DNA from: Asanoa hainanensis
GTDB lineage: Bacteria; Actinomycetota; Actinomycetes; Mycobacteriales; Micromonosporaceae
Length of the DNA stretch: 64,000 nt
Reading direction: 5' to 3'
NCBI RefSeq assembly: GCF_900188485.1
Contig: NZ_FZPH01000002.1
Span: 721,423-785,422, forward strand
Part shown: positions 8,293-45,234 of the stretch, piece by piece
Numbering within the stretch: the first letter of the stretch is position 1
Layout: each line of letters opens with the position of its first letter
Notes under the pieces: generated by a model
What the model saw: the letters and a program-made list of their open reading frames with translations, nothing else
Told to the model about the DNA's origin: nothing
Databases searched by the model: none
Translations under genes and position numbers: made by a program

Positions 8293-8368
8293 TGGTGCGC
8301 CGCCAGGGACTCGAACCCCGAACCCGCGGATTAAGAGTCCGCTGCTCTGCCAGTTGAGCTAGCGGCGC
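8293..8368 (-). tRNA. tRNA-Lys (anticodon CTT)
   Basis: On the minus strand the acceptor arms GCGCCGC (8368-8362) and GCGGCGC (8303-8297) pair fully. The anticodon stem GCGGA/TCCGC encloses the loop CTCTTAA with anticodon CTT. The T-loop GGTTCGAGTCC is standard. The CCA end is encoded (8295-8293). It decodes AAG, the main lysine codon in a high-GC genome. Confidence 0.97.
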
Positions 8369-24992: not shown

Positions 24993-25189
24993 ATGACGCG
25001 AGCCGGGAGTACGCGGAGCCGATCGTCCGCGAGCTGGTGGTGCCGGTGGGGCCGACCGAGGCGTTCGACCTGTTCACCGGCCGGATCGGCGACTGGTGGC
25101 CGAAGTCGTTCACCGCCAGCGGCGCCGCCCTCGCCGCCGAAGGTGGCTGGACCCAGGTCCTCGAGTCCTACCGGGCGAAGGCGCTTTAG
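24993..25189 (+). pseudogene. Decayed SRPBCC (AHSA1-type) gene
   Basis: The frame ending at 25189 reads REYAEPIVRELVVPVG, then PTEAFDLFTGRIGDWWPKSF, the N-terminus of an activator-of-Hsp90-ATPase-like SRPBCC protein. After about 40 residues it jumps directly to GGWTQVLESYRAKAL, which is the family C-terminus. Roughly 90-100 central residues are missing. The likely start, ATG at 24993 (MTR), is in another frame; removing about five bases after it would restore MTREYAEP. So the gene carries both a frameshift and an internal deletion. Its end overlaps the MFS gene on the other strand by 4 bp. Confidence 0.75.
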
Positions 25190-26535
25190 ACCCGCCGCGC
25201 CACCAAGACAGCGGCGGCGCCGAGCAGCGTCGACAGTGTCAGGGTTCCGGCGAAGGACCACCAGGCGCCGAGGCCGGCCAGCGACTGGAACAGCAGGCCG
25301 GCCAGCGCGAGGGCGAGGCTGCCGCCGACCACGTCCGCGATGCTCTTGGCGGCCGTGTTGAAGCCCTGGGTGCCCGGCTCCGAGGCGGCCAGCACCAGCG
25401 TGCTGACCCGGGGATACATCAGGCCCATGCCTGAGCCGGCCAGCAGCCACCCGAGGCCGACGAACAGCCAGTGCGGGCTGACCAGCGCGGTCACCAGCTC
25501 GGCGGCGGCGCCGGTCGCGAGGAACAGCGCGCCGAGCCGGAGCACCGCCGAGTCGGTCCACCTGTCACCGATCCGGCCCTGCACGTGCGAGCCGGCCGCC
25601 CAGGCGATCGCCCCGACGGTCAGCGTGAAGCCCGACAGCCAGCCGGGCAGCCCGTACCGGTCGTGCAGGAGCAGCGGCAGGTAGACCTCGGTGCTGAAGA
25701 AGGTGCCACCGGCGGCGGCGCTGAGCAGCACCGCGCCGGGCAGGCCCGGGCGGGCGCGCAGCGTGCCGGGCGGCAGCAGCGTGCGGACGGACGCCAGCAA
25801 CAGCGCGACGGCGACCGCCACGACGAGCCAGCCCCGGGCGTCCGGCAGCTCACTGGACAGCCCGGCCGTCACCGCGGCGACGGCCACCACCGCGGCGGCG
25901 GCGATCCGCTTGCCGGCACCGGCCGAGACCGTGCCGGACGGGACGACCGTGGACCGGAGCACCGGCACGATCACCAGCGTCGCGGCGGCGACCAGCACCA
26001 GCACGCCGAGGAACACCCAGTGCCAGCTCCACGCGTCGGCCACGAGGCCGGCGACGAAGGGGCCGACCATCGACGGCACCACCCAGGCGGCGGCGAACAG
26101 CCCGAAGATGCGCGGGTGCAGCACAGCCGGGTAGACGGCGGCGATCAGCACGTACAGCGCGACCGTGATGCCGCCGGCGCCGAGGCCTTGGAGGAACCGG
26201 CCGGCGACGAAGACGCCCATGGTGCCGGCCGTGCCCGCCACCGCCAGGCCGGCCGCGAACACGACGATCGCCACCAGCAGGGCCCGCCGTGGGCCGCGCC
26301 GGTCGGCCCACGCACCGGCGGCCACGCTGCCGACCACGTTGGCCGCCGTCGTGGCCACGAACGCCACCGAGTAGAGCGACCGGCCGTCGAGCTCGGCCGT
26401 GATGGTGGGCATCACGGTGGTGACCGCCAGGGCCTCGAACGCGGCCAGGAACACCAGGCTGGTCGAGCCGGCGGTGGCCAGCGCGTAGCGGCGGTCGAAG
26501 AGTCGGGTCTCGGGCTCGATGGCGGTGACGGTCAC
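25186..26535 (-). CDS. MFS drug-exporter-like transporter
   Basis: A 449-residue major facilitator with about 14 membrane helices (DHA2-like). The helix 2-3 loop GAWADRRGPRRALLV is the MFS motif A, and GRFLQGLGAGGITVALYVLI is the helix 4-5 region. The GTG at 26535 is chosen because a SoxR-type promoter places its -10 just 6 nt upstream, so the message would be leaderless; the longer frame to 26556 would start inside the operator. Regulation by a redox-sensing SoxR protein predicts export of redox-active metabolites or dyes. No soxR gene is in the window. Confidence 0.9.
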   Translation of the reverse strand: MTVTAIEPETRLFDRRYALATAGSTSLVFLAAFEALAVTTVMPTITAELDGRSLYSVAFVATTAANVVGSVAAGAWADRRGPRRALLVAIVVFAAGLAVAGTAGTMGVFVAGRFLQGLGAGGITVALYVLIAAVYPAVLHPRIFGLFAAAWVVPSMVGPFVAGLVADAWSWHWVFLGVLVLVAAATLVIVPVLRSTVVPSGTVSAGAGKRIAAAAVVAVAAVTAGLSSELPDARGWLVVAVAVALLLASVRTLLPPGTLRARPGLPGAVLLSAAAGGTFFSTEVYLPLLLHDRYGLPGWLSGFTLTVGAIAWAAGSHVQGRIGDRWTDSAVLRLGALFLATGAAAELVTALVSPHWLFVGLGWLLAGSGMGLMYPRVSTLVLAASEPGTQGFNTAAKSIADVVGGSLALALAGLLFQSLAGLGAWWSFAGTLTLSTLLGAAAVLVARRV

Positions 26536-26541
26536 CGCACG

Positions 26542-26572
26542 ATGATCTGACCTCAAGCGGGGTTGAGGTCAA
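26542..26572 (-). promoter_or_regulatory. SoxR-type promoter of MFS exporter
   Basis: On the minus strand: -35 TTGACC (26572-26567), 19-bp spacer, -10 GATCAT (26547-26542). The spacer holds CCTCAA-N6-TTGAGG (26551-26568), part of a perfect 9-bp inverted repeat TGACCTCAA/TTGAGGTCA. The over-long 19-bp spacer and 18-bp box match SoxR/MerR-type promoters. The start codon follows 6 nt after the -10. Confidence 0.8.
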
Positions 26573-26579
26573 CCGAGTT

Positions 26580-27620
26580 TCAGCCCTCCGCGGTGTGCTC
26601 CCGGGGCACGACCTCGTCGGCGCGCACCGGCCCGGGCGGGGTGCCGTCGCCGAACGGGCGCCCGCCGAGCGCCTCCCGGCCGTGCGGCGTGAGCCAGCCC
26701 GACAGGTCCGGACCTGCGGGCACGATCCCGGTCGGGTTGATGTCGCGGTGCACCTCGTAGTAGTGCCGCTTGATGTGGTCGAAGTCGACGGTGTCGCCGA
26801 AGCCCGGCGTCGCGAACAGGTCCCGCGCGTACGCCCAGAGCACCGGCATCTCGGTCAGCTTCTGGCGGTTGCACTTGAAGTGCCCGTGGTAGACCGCGTC
26901 GAACCGGACCAGGGTGGTGAACAGCCGCACGTCGGCTTCGGTGATCGTGTCGCCGACCAGGTAGCGCCGGTCGGCCAGGCGGTCCGAGAGCCAGTCGAGC
27001 CGATCGAAGAGCCGGGTGTACGCCTTCTCGTACGCCTCCTGCGACCCGGCGAAGCCGGCCCGGTAGACGCCGTTGTTGACGTCCTTGAAGACTACCTCGT
27101 TGACCTCGTCGATCTCCGGCCGGAGCGCCTCCGGGTAGAGCTCCGGCGCGCCCGGGCGCTGGTGGTCGCGCCACTCCAGCGACATGTCGATGGTGATCTG
27201 CGGGTAGTCGTTCGTGACCACCTCGCCCGTGGTGACGTCGACGATCGCCGGCACCGTGATGCCCCGCTCGTAGTCGGGGAACCGCTTGAAGAAGGCCTGC
27301 TGGAGCCGCTCGTAGCCGAGCACCGGGTCGATCCCGCCGGGAGCGAGGTCGAAGGTCCAGCTCCGCTTGTCGTGCGTGGGCCCGGCGATGGCCATCGAGA
27401 TCGCGTCCTCCAGACCGAGCAGCCGACGGACGATCACCGCGCGGCTGGCCCACGGGCAGGCCCGGCTCACGACCAGGCGGTAGCGGCCCGCTTCGACGGG
27501 GTAGCCGTCGCGCCCGTCCCGGGTGATCCGGGAGGCGATGTAGCGCTGGTCACGGGTGAACTCACCGGCGGGGTTGACGTAGACCCCCTGCTCGGTCGTG
27601 ATGTCGGGCATGCGTCCCAT
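26580..27620 (-). CDS. Glutathionyl-hydroquinone-reductase-like transferase
   Basis: A 346-residue protein of the Xi-class glutathione transferase/YqjG-ECM4 family. The thioredoxin-like N-domain has SRACPWASRAV with the catalytic Cys near residue 55; the C-domain is the helical GST half (YRAGFAGSQEAYEKAYTRLFDRLDWLSDRLADRRYLVGD, then ADVRLFTTLVRFDAVYHGHFKCN). Family enzymes reduce thiol-hydroquinone conjugates. In actinobacteria mycothiol is the probable thiol. It lies just upstream of the SoxR-controlled exporter on the same strand, which fits quinone detoxification. ATG 27620 is used; ATG 27611 is possible. Confidence 0.9.
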   Translation of the reverse strand: MGRMPDITTEQGVYVNPAGEFTRDQRYIASRITRDGRDGYPVEAGRYRLVVSRACPWASRAVIVRRLLGLEDAISMAIAGPTHDKRSWTFDLAPGGIDPVLGYERLQQAFFKRFPDYERGITVPAIVDVTTGEVVTNDYPQITIDMSLEWRDHQRPGAPELYPEALRPEIDEVNEVVFKDVNNGVYRAGFAGSQEAYEKAYTRLFDRLDWLSDRLADRRYLVGDTITEADVRLFTTLVRFDAVYHGHFKCNRQKLTEMPVLWAYARDLFATPGFGDTVDFDHIKRHYYEVHRDINPTGIVPAGPDLSGWLTPHGREALGGRPFGDGTPPGPVRADEVVPREHTAEG

Positions 27621-43507: not shown

Positions 43508-44278
43508 ATGCGAGTACTAGTCATCGGAGGCTCGGGTGTGGTCGGGCGACCCACCGCGGGCGCGTTGTTCCAGCGTGGCCACCAGGTCGCGGTGCTCAGC
43601 CGTGGTGGCACGGCCGGCCCGGCCGGGACCGAGGCGTTCCAGGGTGACCTCACCACGGGCGCGGGGCTCGACCGGGCGTTGGCCGGCGTCGACTGCGTGG
43701 TCGACTGCGCCAACGTCGCGACCATGTCCCGCGCGGCGGCGGTTCGCTACTTCACCGACACCACCACGCTGCTCGGGCGGCGCGCCGAGGCGGCCGGGGT
43801 CAAGCACCACGTGGTGCTGAGCATCGTGGGCATCGACCGGGTGCCCAACGGCTACTTCAGCGGCAAGCTGGCCCAGGAGGAGGCGGTGCTCGGCGGCCCG
43901 GTGCCGGCCACTGTCCTGCGGGCGACGCAGTTCCACGAGTTCGCGGGCCAGGTGATGGGTCAGCTGGCGGTCGGGCGCTTCGCGTTCGTGCCGCAGATGC
44001 GGACCCAGCCGATCGCGGCCGCCGAGGTCGGTGCTGCCCTGGCCGAGGTGGTCGAGGACGGCCCGCGCGGCCGGGTCCCGGACATCGGCGGACCGCGGGT
44101 GGAGTGGTTGCCCGACCTGGCCCGGCAGTTCGCGCGGCACCGCGGCCTGGGCCGCACGGTGGTGCCGCTGTGGGTGCCCGGCAAGGCGGGCCGGGAGATG
44201 CGCGGCTCGGGCCAGCTACCCGGACCCGGTGCCGTCCTGCGCGGTCCGACCTTCGGGGAGTGGTTAAAGGACCAGTAG
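43508..44278 (+). CDS. NAD(P)-binding NmrA/SDR-type protein
   Basis: A 256-residue atypical short-chain dehydrogenase: MRVLVIGGSGVVGRPTAGALFQRGHQVAVLSRGG is the Gly-rich cofactor loop; HHVVLSIVGIDRVPNGYFSGKLAQEEAVLGG keeps a Tyr-x3-Lys (YFSGK). NmrA-like members often sense redox state without catalysis. It converges with the quinone oxidoreductase and overlaps it by 15 bp. An NmrA-like gene is a known SoxR target in some Streptomyces, but no box is seen before this start. Confidence 0.88.
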   Translation: MRVLVIGGSGVVGRPTAGALFQRGHQVAVLSRGGTAGPAGTEAFQGDLTTGAGLDRALAGVDCVVDCANVATMSRAAAVRYFTDTTTLLGRRAEAAGVKHHVVLSIVGIDRVPNGYFSGKLAQEEAVLGGPVPATVLRATQFHEFAGQVMGQLAVGRFAFVPQMRTQPIAAAEVGAALAEVVEDGPRGRVPDIGGPRVEWLPDLARQFARHRGLGRTVVPLWVPGKAGREMRGSGQLPGPGAVLRGPTFGEWLKDQ

Positions 44279-45196
44279 CGTCTTGCCGATCGTGGAGCGC
44301 GCCTCGATCGCCGCGTGGGCGTCGGCGGCGCGCTCCAGGGGGAAGCGCTGTCCGATCACCGGGCGGAGCCGGCCGTCCGCGGCGAGCCGGAGCGCCTCCG
44401 CGGACAGGGCGCGCAGCTCGTCGGGCGTGCCCGTGGCGCCGCGGATCAGCGTCACGCCGCGCGCGGTGGCCTCGTCGTCGGTGACGTCGGACCAGGCGCC
44501 GCTGGACAGGCCGTAGCTGAGCATCCGGCCGCCGGGCGCGAGCTGTTCGAAGGCCGCCCGGGCGACGTCGCCGCCGACGCCGTCGAACACGACGTCCAGC
44601 GGGCCGATGCCGCTCGCCCAGCCGGGCGCGGTGTAGTCGACGGCGAGATCAGCACCTACGTGCGCCAACTTGCCCGCGCTGGCGGCCCCCGTGACCACAG
44701 CGCCGGCCGCCTTCGCGAGCTGGACCAGCAGCGTGCCGACCCCGCCCGCGGCGGCCTCGACCAGCACTCGCTCGCCGGGCTTCGGCGCCGCCCCGCGCAG
44801 CAGCAGCAGAGCGGTGCGGCCGTCGGCGAGCAGGGCCACCGCGGTATCCAGGCCGAGTCCGTCGGGCACAGGCACGAGGCCGGCCGCGTCGACCACCACC
44901 TGCGACGCGTAGCCGCCGGAGCCGCCGGTCGAGGTGACCACCCGCGTGCCGACCAGCGCGGGGTCCACCCCGGTGCCGACCGCGGCGACCACTCCGCCGA
45001 CCCCGTTGCCGGGCACCATCGGGAACTCGCCCTTGAAGGGGCCGAAGCCCTTCGCCCGGAACATCGTCTCGACGAAGGTGATGTTGGCGTAGGCCACGTC
45101 AACCAGCGCCTGGCCCGCGGCGGGGGATGGGTCCGGTGCTTCACCGGGAATCAGCACGGATGGGTCGCCGAACTGCGTCAACCACACGACTCGCAT
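44264..45196 (-). CDS. NADPH-dependent quinone oxidoreductase, SoxR-type promoter
   Basis: A 310-residue medium-chain dehydrogenase of the zinc-independent quinone reductase type. MRVVWLTQFGDPSVL opens the catalytic domain; GERVLVEAAAGGVGTLLVQLAKAAGAVVTG is the NADPH-binding loop. No structural zinc cysteines are present. ATG 45196 lies 7 nt after a -10 element of a SoxR-type promoter, hence the message may be leaderless. The product should reduce quinones by two electrons and so limit redox cycling. It resembles the oxidoreductase reported as a SoxR target in Streptomyces coelicolor; this is recalled knowledge and not an alignment. Confidence 0.92.
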   Translation of the reverse strand: MRVVWLTQFGDPSVLIPGEAPDPSPAAGQALVDVAYANITFVETMFRAKGFGPFKGEFPMVPGNGVGGVVAAVGTGVDPALVGTRVVTSTGGSGGYASQVVVDAAGLVPVPDGLGLDTAVALLADGRTALLLLRGAAPKPGERVLVEAAAGGVGTLLVQLAKAAGAVVTGAASAGKLAHVGADLAVDYTAPGWASGIGPLDVVFDGVGGDVARAAFEQLAPGGRMLSYGLSSGAWSDVTDDEATARGVTLIRGATGTPDELRALSAEALRLAADGRLRPVIGQRFPLERAADAHAAIEARSTIGKTLLVL

Positions 45197-45203
45197 GCGA
45201 CGA

Positions 45204-45234
45204 AGGATCACACCTCAACCCACGTTGAGGTCAA
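45204..45234 (-). promoter_or_regulatory. SoxR-type promoter of quinone oxidoreductase
   Basis: On the minus strand: -35 TTGACC (45234-45229), 19-bp spacer, -10 GATCCT (45209-45204). The spacer contains CCTCAA-N6-TTGAGG (45213-45230), the centre of a perfect 7-bp inverted repeat ACCTCAA/TTGAGGT. The -35 covers the stop codon of the trmO gene. Element sequences and distances match those before the MFS exporter at 26535. Confidence 0.8.

Follow-up and report, generated by a model that had tools for sequence, protein, structure and literature searches.

SoxR of Streptomyces coelicolor binds and activates a small regulon of six genes, which code for a transporter and for redox enzymes, among them an oxidoreductase and a quinone oxidoreductase (PMC4146615, in the parts available). 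In Stenotrophomonas maltophilia, the MFS gene mfsA has a promoter of the form TTGACC-19 bp-CATGCT with a CCTCAA-N6-TTGAGG dyad, and binding of SoxR was shown there by gel shift (PMC4411124, likewise in part). Leaderless genes have been described separately: 21% of the mapped primary transcription starts of S. coelicolor are leaderless (PMC4895711, in part), and a TAnnnT motif some 12 bp ahead of the start codon is taken to mark leaderless genes (PMC3160421, in part). As far as these sources were available, the word SoxR is absent from the main texts of the leaderless-gene papers (PMC4895711, PMC4681348, PMC3160421), and the passages on SoxR and on leaderless transcripts in a study of S. coelicolor SigR are not tied together (PMC4921905); the word leaderless, in turn, is absent from the main text of PMC4146615. 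Co-regulated SoxR gene sets are already known. The less usual feature of the promoters described here is that their mRNAs are predicted to begin at the start codon.

The window, i.e., the whole stretch of 64,000 nucleotides of Asanoa hainanensis DNA that was analysed, contains two SoxR-type promoters on the minus strand, identified by their sequence, their rarity and their conservation in the genus. The first (26542–26572) lies ahead of an MFS gene and has in common with Stenotrophomonas mfsA, as described in the available part of PMC4411124, the -35 element TTGACC (here at 26567–26572), the 19-bp spacer (26548–26566) and the dyad CCTCAA-N6-TTGAGG (26551–26568), which here lengthens to arms of 9 bp. 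Its -10 element, GATCAT (26542–26547), is followed by CGTGCG and, after this gap of 6 nt, by a GTG start codon at 26535. The second (45204–45234) lies ahead of a quinone oxidoreductase gene and consists of TTGACC (45229–45234), a 19-bp spacer (45210–45228), the same dyad (45213–45230) and the -10 element GATCCT (45204–45209), from which TCGTCGC separates the ATG at 45196 (7 nt). At both sites the dyad begins within the -35 element and occupies most of the spacer, and both promoters fit the layout of SoxR-activated promoters, in which the dyad lies between -35 and -10 elements held apart by an over-long spacer of 19 bp. Mention should be made of the flanking DNA: a glutathione S-transferase-like gene (26580–27620; Pfam GST_N_2 and GST_C_2) terminates 8 bp ahead of the MFS promoter, and the -35 element of the second promoter overlaps the TGA stop (45231–45233) of the upstream TrmO gene.

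An earlier note on this DNA had described the MFS promoter as TTGACC, a 19-bp spacer, a 9-bp inverted repeat and GATCAT placed 6 nt before the GTG, a description that the sequence bears out. It had also classed the promoter as SoxR-type with an over-long spacer, and this class is upheld by the dyad that fills the 19-bp spacer and by the presence of SoxR homologues in the genome. The further statement that the two sites match base for base at all defining positions is correct for the -35 elements, the dyad arms and the spacer length, but not for the whole -10 element, in which one base differs; the N6 and the two bases following GAGGT differ as well.

The MFS gene (25186–26535, minus strand) starts with GTG and encodes a predicted exporter of 449 aa on a predicted leaderless mRNA. 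The protein scores 126.6 bits against Pfam MFS_1 (cut-off 33.4) and thus belongs to the general family, and orthologues are present in all six genomes of the genus. Among the NCBIfam efflux models, none is over its cut-off (SdrM, 71.2 bits vs. 550; EmrB/DHA2, 70.8 vs. 230.2). The second gene (44264–45196, minus strand, 310 aa, ATG start, predicted leaderless) encodes a zinc-type dehydrogenase or quinone oxidoreductase, in which the Pfam zinc dehydrogenase domains ADH_zinc_N_2, ADH_zinc_N and ADH_N are all over cut-off; its best NCBIfam match, the PIG3-type model TIGR02824, reaches 139.3 bits and stays under the cut-off of 296.8. The two targets originally proposed, an MFS gene and a quinone oxidoreductase gene, can therefore be retained at the level of Pfam families, while the word exporter is a family-level prediction, and the substrates of both products are predictions only because the NCBIfam efflux and quinone-reductase models remain below their cut-offs. 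The two genes are 18.6 kb apart here and about 8.5 to 25 kb apart across the genus, so no significance attaches to the value of 18.6 kb as such. The only tRNA found in the window, which is also its only Rfam match over threshold, is a tRNA-Lys (CTT) at 8293–8368.

How rare such sites are depends on the pattern searched. For the 23-base form TTGACCTCAA-N6-TTGAGGT, the window has two matches, and 100 dinucleotide-preserving shuffles gave none. If up to two mismatches are allowed, the dyad on its own is not rare by chance, with a mean of 1.06 per shuffle and at least two copies in 25 of the 100; neither window dyad, though, has any mismatch. Throughout the genome (8.64 Mb, 44 contigs), the 23-base form has three matches and its reversed control none. 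A genome-wide scan for CCTCAA-N6-TTGAGG, which the earlier note had proposed as a check, yielded three exact dyads and four further places with one mismatch, the reversed control being found at two places. All three exact dyads sit in the same promoter frame, and once the -35 and -10 elements are added, these three and a single one-mismatch site stand out (control 0). The third exact site (contig C42, locus L003) has the -10 element CAGACT, with an ATG 7 nt on, and lies ahead of a second quinone oxidoreductase gene (L003:892-1484). This gene is broken as assembled: residues 55–163 of the 298-residue protein of a sister genome are unmatched, and its two fragments are found in different frames or near each other. 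The one-mismatch site (contig C11, locus L004) has the -10 element GAGGCT, with an ATG 6 nt on, and lies ahead of an NmrA-type oxidoreductase gene; its other flank is a soxR-like gene, SoxR-B. The idea of a small local regulon therefore stands as regards a small SoxR-type gene set, but the set is not local, as the third exact and the one-mismatch sites are on other contigs.

A looser search of the same genome, with up to three mismatches and the -10 element included, gave eight rows that correspond to six places, two of the rows being known sites on the opposite strand (control 0). One place with two mismatches (L232) was dropped: the nearest start codon with a frame of 80 codons or more lies 77 nt downstream, and the ATG 6 nt after the -10 element opens a short frame only. 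On contig C27 (L233:1484-1540), a row of SoxR-like half-sites with three mismatches precedes a frame of 330 aa that looks like one for an MFS protein, which makes it a possible weak additional target.

The sites are conserved beyond this genome. The 23-base form is present in all six genomes of the genus, with 19 sites in total (reversed control 0), and at every one of the 19 a start codon lies 6–8 nt past the -10 element. It precedes the window-type quinone oxidoreductase in 6/6 genomes and the second quinone oxidoreductase in 5/6. Among the promoters of the MFS orthologues, four of six have the exact form; the other two have altered dyad arms with unchanged -35 element, spacing and GTG. The remaining four of the 19 sites precede a questin-oxidase-like gene, a short-chain dehydrogenase, a 6-phosphogluconate-dehydrogenase-like gene and a short frame resembling the latter. 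As a side observation, the DNA upstream of the MFS promoter is similar in five of the six genomes, the exception being G002. At the level of the family, 62 of 150 genomes have the 23-base form (control 0), and 135 of the 150 encode a SoxR over cut-off. Of the 135 genomes with SoxR, 60 have the form, vs. two of the 15 without (Fisher p 0.026, relatedness ignored). That the other 75 genomes with SoxR have no exact 23-base form would in part be due to a search that demanded the exact pattern.

SoxR homologues were sought with NCBIfam TIGR01950 (cut-off 116.9), and two proteins of the genome are over the cut-off. SoxR-A (contig C20, locus L008) reaches 199.8 bits and has the [2Fe-2S] cluster motif CX2CXCX5C with its four cysteines, CIGCGCLSMQRC. 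Its closest solved relative is a SoxR, 2zhg, which we take to be the E. coli protein. Orthologues of SoxR-A in the five remaining genomes of the genus are 90–95% identical to it, and the cysteine motif is present in 6/6. SoxR-B (L009:1438-1869, contig C11) reaches 141.8 bits and is likewise found in all six genomes; here it ends without the four [2Fe-2S] cysteines, which the other five copies retain. Both homologues are on other contigs, in agreement with the earlier remark that neither window region has soxR. The earlier note had further advised a search for soxR and had held that the absence of any SoxR homologue from the genome would speak against its claim; this objection fails because SoxR-A, with its cluster cysteines, was found.

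It is thus highly probable that the SoxR homologue of this genome binds the two near-identical SoxR-type promoters and, when redox-active compounds have oxidised it, would drive two genes whose mRNAs are predicted to be leaderless and whose predicted products are an MFS exporter and a quinone oxidoreductase. The two window genes are likely to be switched on together by such compounds. Following published work on SoxR and other MerR-type regulators, a SoxR dimer would sit on the dyad between the -35 and -10 elements, where the 19-bp spacer would be too long for RNA polymerase alone. Redox-active compounds would oxidise the cluster of SoxR-A, SoxR would then distort the spacer DNA, and transcription could start. 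As the -10 elements end 6–7 nt upstream of the start codon, RNA polymerase is predicted to begin at the codon's first base or at the base before it. The reductase would modify quinone-like compounds, whether self-made or foreign, and the pump would remove them.

As the intact paralogue, SoxR-A is the likelier acting regulator. Control of both window promoters by SoxR-B, alone or together with SoxR-A, would be consistent with its score over the TIGR01950 cut-off, its presence in 6/6 genomes and the near-match of the operator in the intergenic region between SoxR-B and its divergent neighbour. However, the copy in this genome is without the four cluster cysteines kept by the other five, and at the adjacent site the left arm is altered to CCTGAA and the centre is rich in A/T, unlike the G/C-rich centres of the window sites, which makes such control unlikely. 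Across the genus, the SoxR-B site (L222-L227) shows an altered arm, and its centre, CAAATG or CATTTG, is A/T-rich, while the other sites have G/C-rich centres; judging from these sequences, SoxR-A and SoxR-B may distinguish their own sites by the composition of the centre.

The second part of the proposal, leaderless transcription, concerns the distance from the -10 element to the start codon. Taking a -10 element of the form xAnnnT that ends 5–8 nt before the start as the leaderless layout, both window promoters have it (MFS, 6 nt; quinone oxidoreductase, 7 nt), so that the start codons are indeed placed where a leaderless mRNA would begin, as had been claimed. In the family, 92 sites were listed (L018-L060, L236-L284), of which 91 were readable, L280 having been dropped as too close to the end of its locus. 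The A and T positions of the -10 element lay outside the search pattern, and at the 91 listed sites they are occupied by A in 96% and by T in 99%. An ATG or GTG that opens at least 100 codons lies 5–8 nt past the -10 element at 65 of these 91 sites, where 9.5 would be expected from positions 9–150; outside the genus, 46 of 72 listed family sites have the same layout. A further set of named sites was drawn from 119 listed stretches, with seven from Actinomycetota and two from Pseudomonadota dropped as too close to the locus end. Among the matches listed, a start 5–8 nt past the -10 element was found at 37 of 62 sites of named Actinomycetota (5.4 expected) and at two of 48 sites of Pseudomonadota (3.0 expected).

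For all readable Actinomycetota sites among the matches listed, the layout is thus present at 102 of 153; some of these 102 calls must be chance because 9.5 of 91 and 5.4 of 62 are expected. Compared with leaderless actinomycete genes as described in the available parts of PMC4895711, PMC4681348 and PMC3160421, this would place one regulon well above the 21% share, a strong contrast which is no statistical test, as it sets transcripts against a layout read from sequence alone and includes related, non-independent sites. A control with three patterns for promoter-like sites that have no SoxR box, at 123 Actinomycetota loci, gave a start at 5–8 nt at 0/5 sites (0.3 expected), no site at all and 0/36 (1.4 expected), respectively; this control is too small to carry weight, many of the 36 may be non-promoters, and a long frame of any kind is near 24 of them.

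The promoters could also be genuine SoxR targets with mRNAs that are not leaderless, either because a promoter further upstream or because a start codon further downstream is used. Among the matches listed, the only long frame lies further on at 49 of the 153 Actinomycetota sites, and two have none, as this alternative would allow. In the window genes, however, the position of the start is constant in 6/6 MFS and 6/6 quinone oxidoreductase promoters, and the next start in the MFS frame, 81 nt on, falls in the part of the protein at which MFS_1 begins to match (residue 27), so we consider messages with leaders quite improbable at these two genes. Finally, functionless dyads due to chance are extremely improbable: although the bare dyad with up to two mismatches is expected about once per window, the 23-base form was absent from all shuffles and from the reversed controls in six and in 150 genomes, the -10 A and T are kept at a fixed distance throughout the family, and the site is retained in orthologous promoters.

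With SoxR-A and leaderless mRNAs as the preferred reading, the gene set resembles the SoxR regulon of S. coelicolor (PMC4146615, in the parts available) in that the genes for the redox enzymes and for a transporter lie apart from soxR and have a SoxR box in every promoter, SoxR binding being a prediction here. Even the sixth S. coelicolor gene, a quinone oxidoreductase frame-shifted by the loss of a base, has a counterpart in the broken third target of this genome. In contrast to that regulon, as described in the same source, the transporter is an MFS protein and not an ABC protein (SCO7008), and the genus studied here has two SoxR paralogues. Stenotrophomonas mfsA differs in another respect: it adjoins soxR, and its mRNA carries a leader of roughly 40 nt (PMC4411124, in part), whereas the window genes are without an adjacent soxR, and their start codons follow the predicted transcription starts too closely for a leader. 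The actinomycetes with small SoxR regulons thus gain a further genus, in which an MFS pump takes the place of the ABC pump of S. coelicolor.

What is less expected is the leaderless layout, which seems to be habitual among the SoxR targets of Actinomycetota. Such a habit was not found stated in the literature searched, which left aside the subscription papers on S. coelicolor SoxR and supplementary tables of start sites. More tentatively, and with considerable doubt, SoxR might run a mainly leaderless regulon in Actinomycetota, with operator, -10 element and start codon forming one module of ~40 bp, and translation free of Shine-Dalgarno sequences might be favoured while redox-active antibiotics disturb ordinary initiation; Pseudomonadota would use the same operator for messages with leaders. 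If this were true, the choice of regulator and the mode of translation start would be tied together. The finding also gives an easy way to test whether a single stress regulon of Actinomycetota is leaderless as a class.

Among the matches listed, a frame lies downstream of 151 of the 153 Actinomycetota sites, and these frames fall into 34 BLAST groups, of which 18 are singletons. The biggest groups, again among the matches listed, are those of the window quinone oxidoreductase (43) and the window MFS protein (22), followed by a flavin-reductase and an ABC-transporter group (10 each); Pfam was used to check one member of each of the latter two groups and a further member of the MFS group. As the quinone oxidoreductase and MFS groups are the largest, the two most frequent target types of the set are both present in the window.
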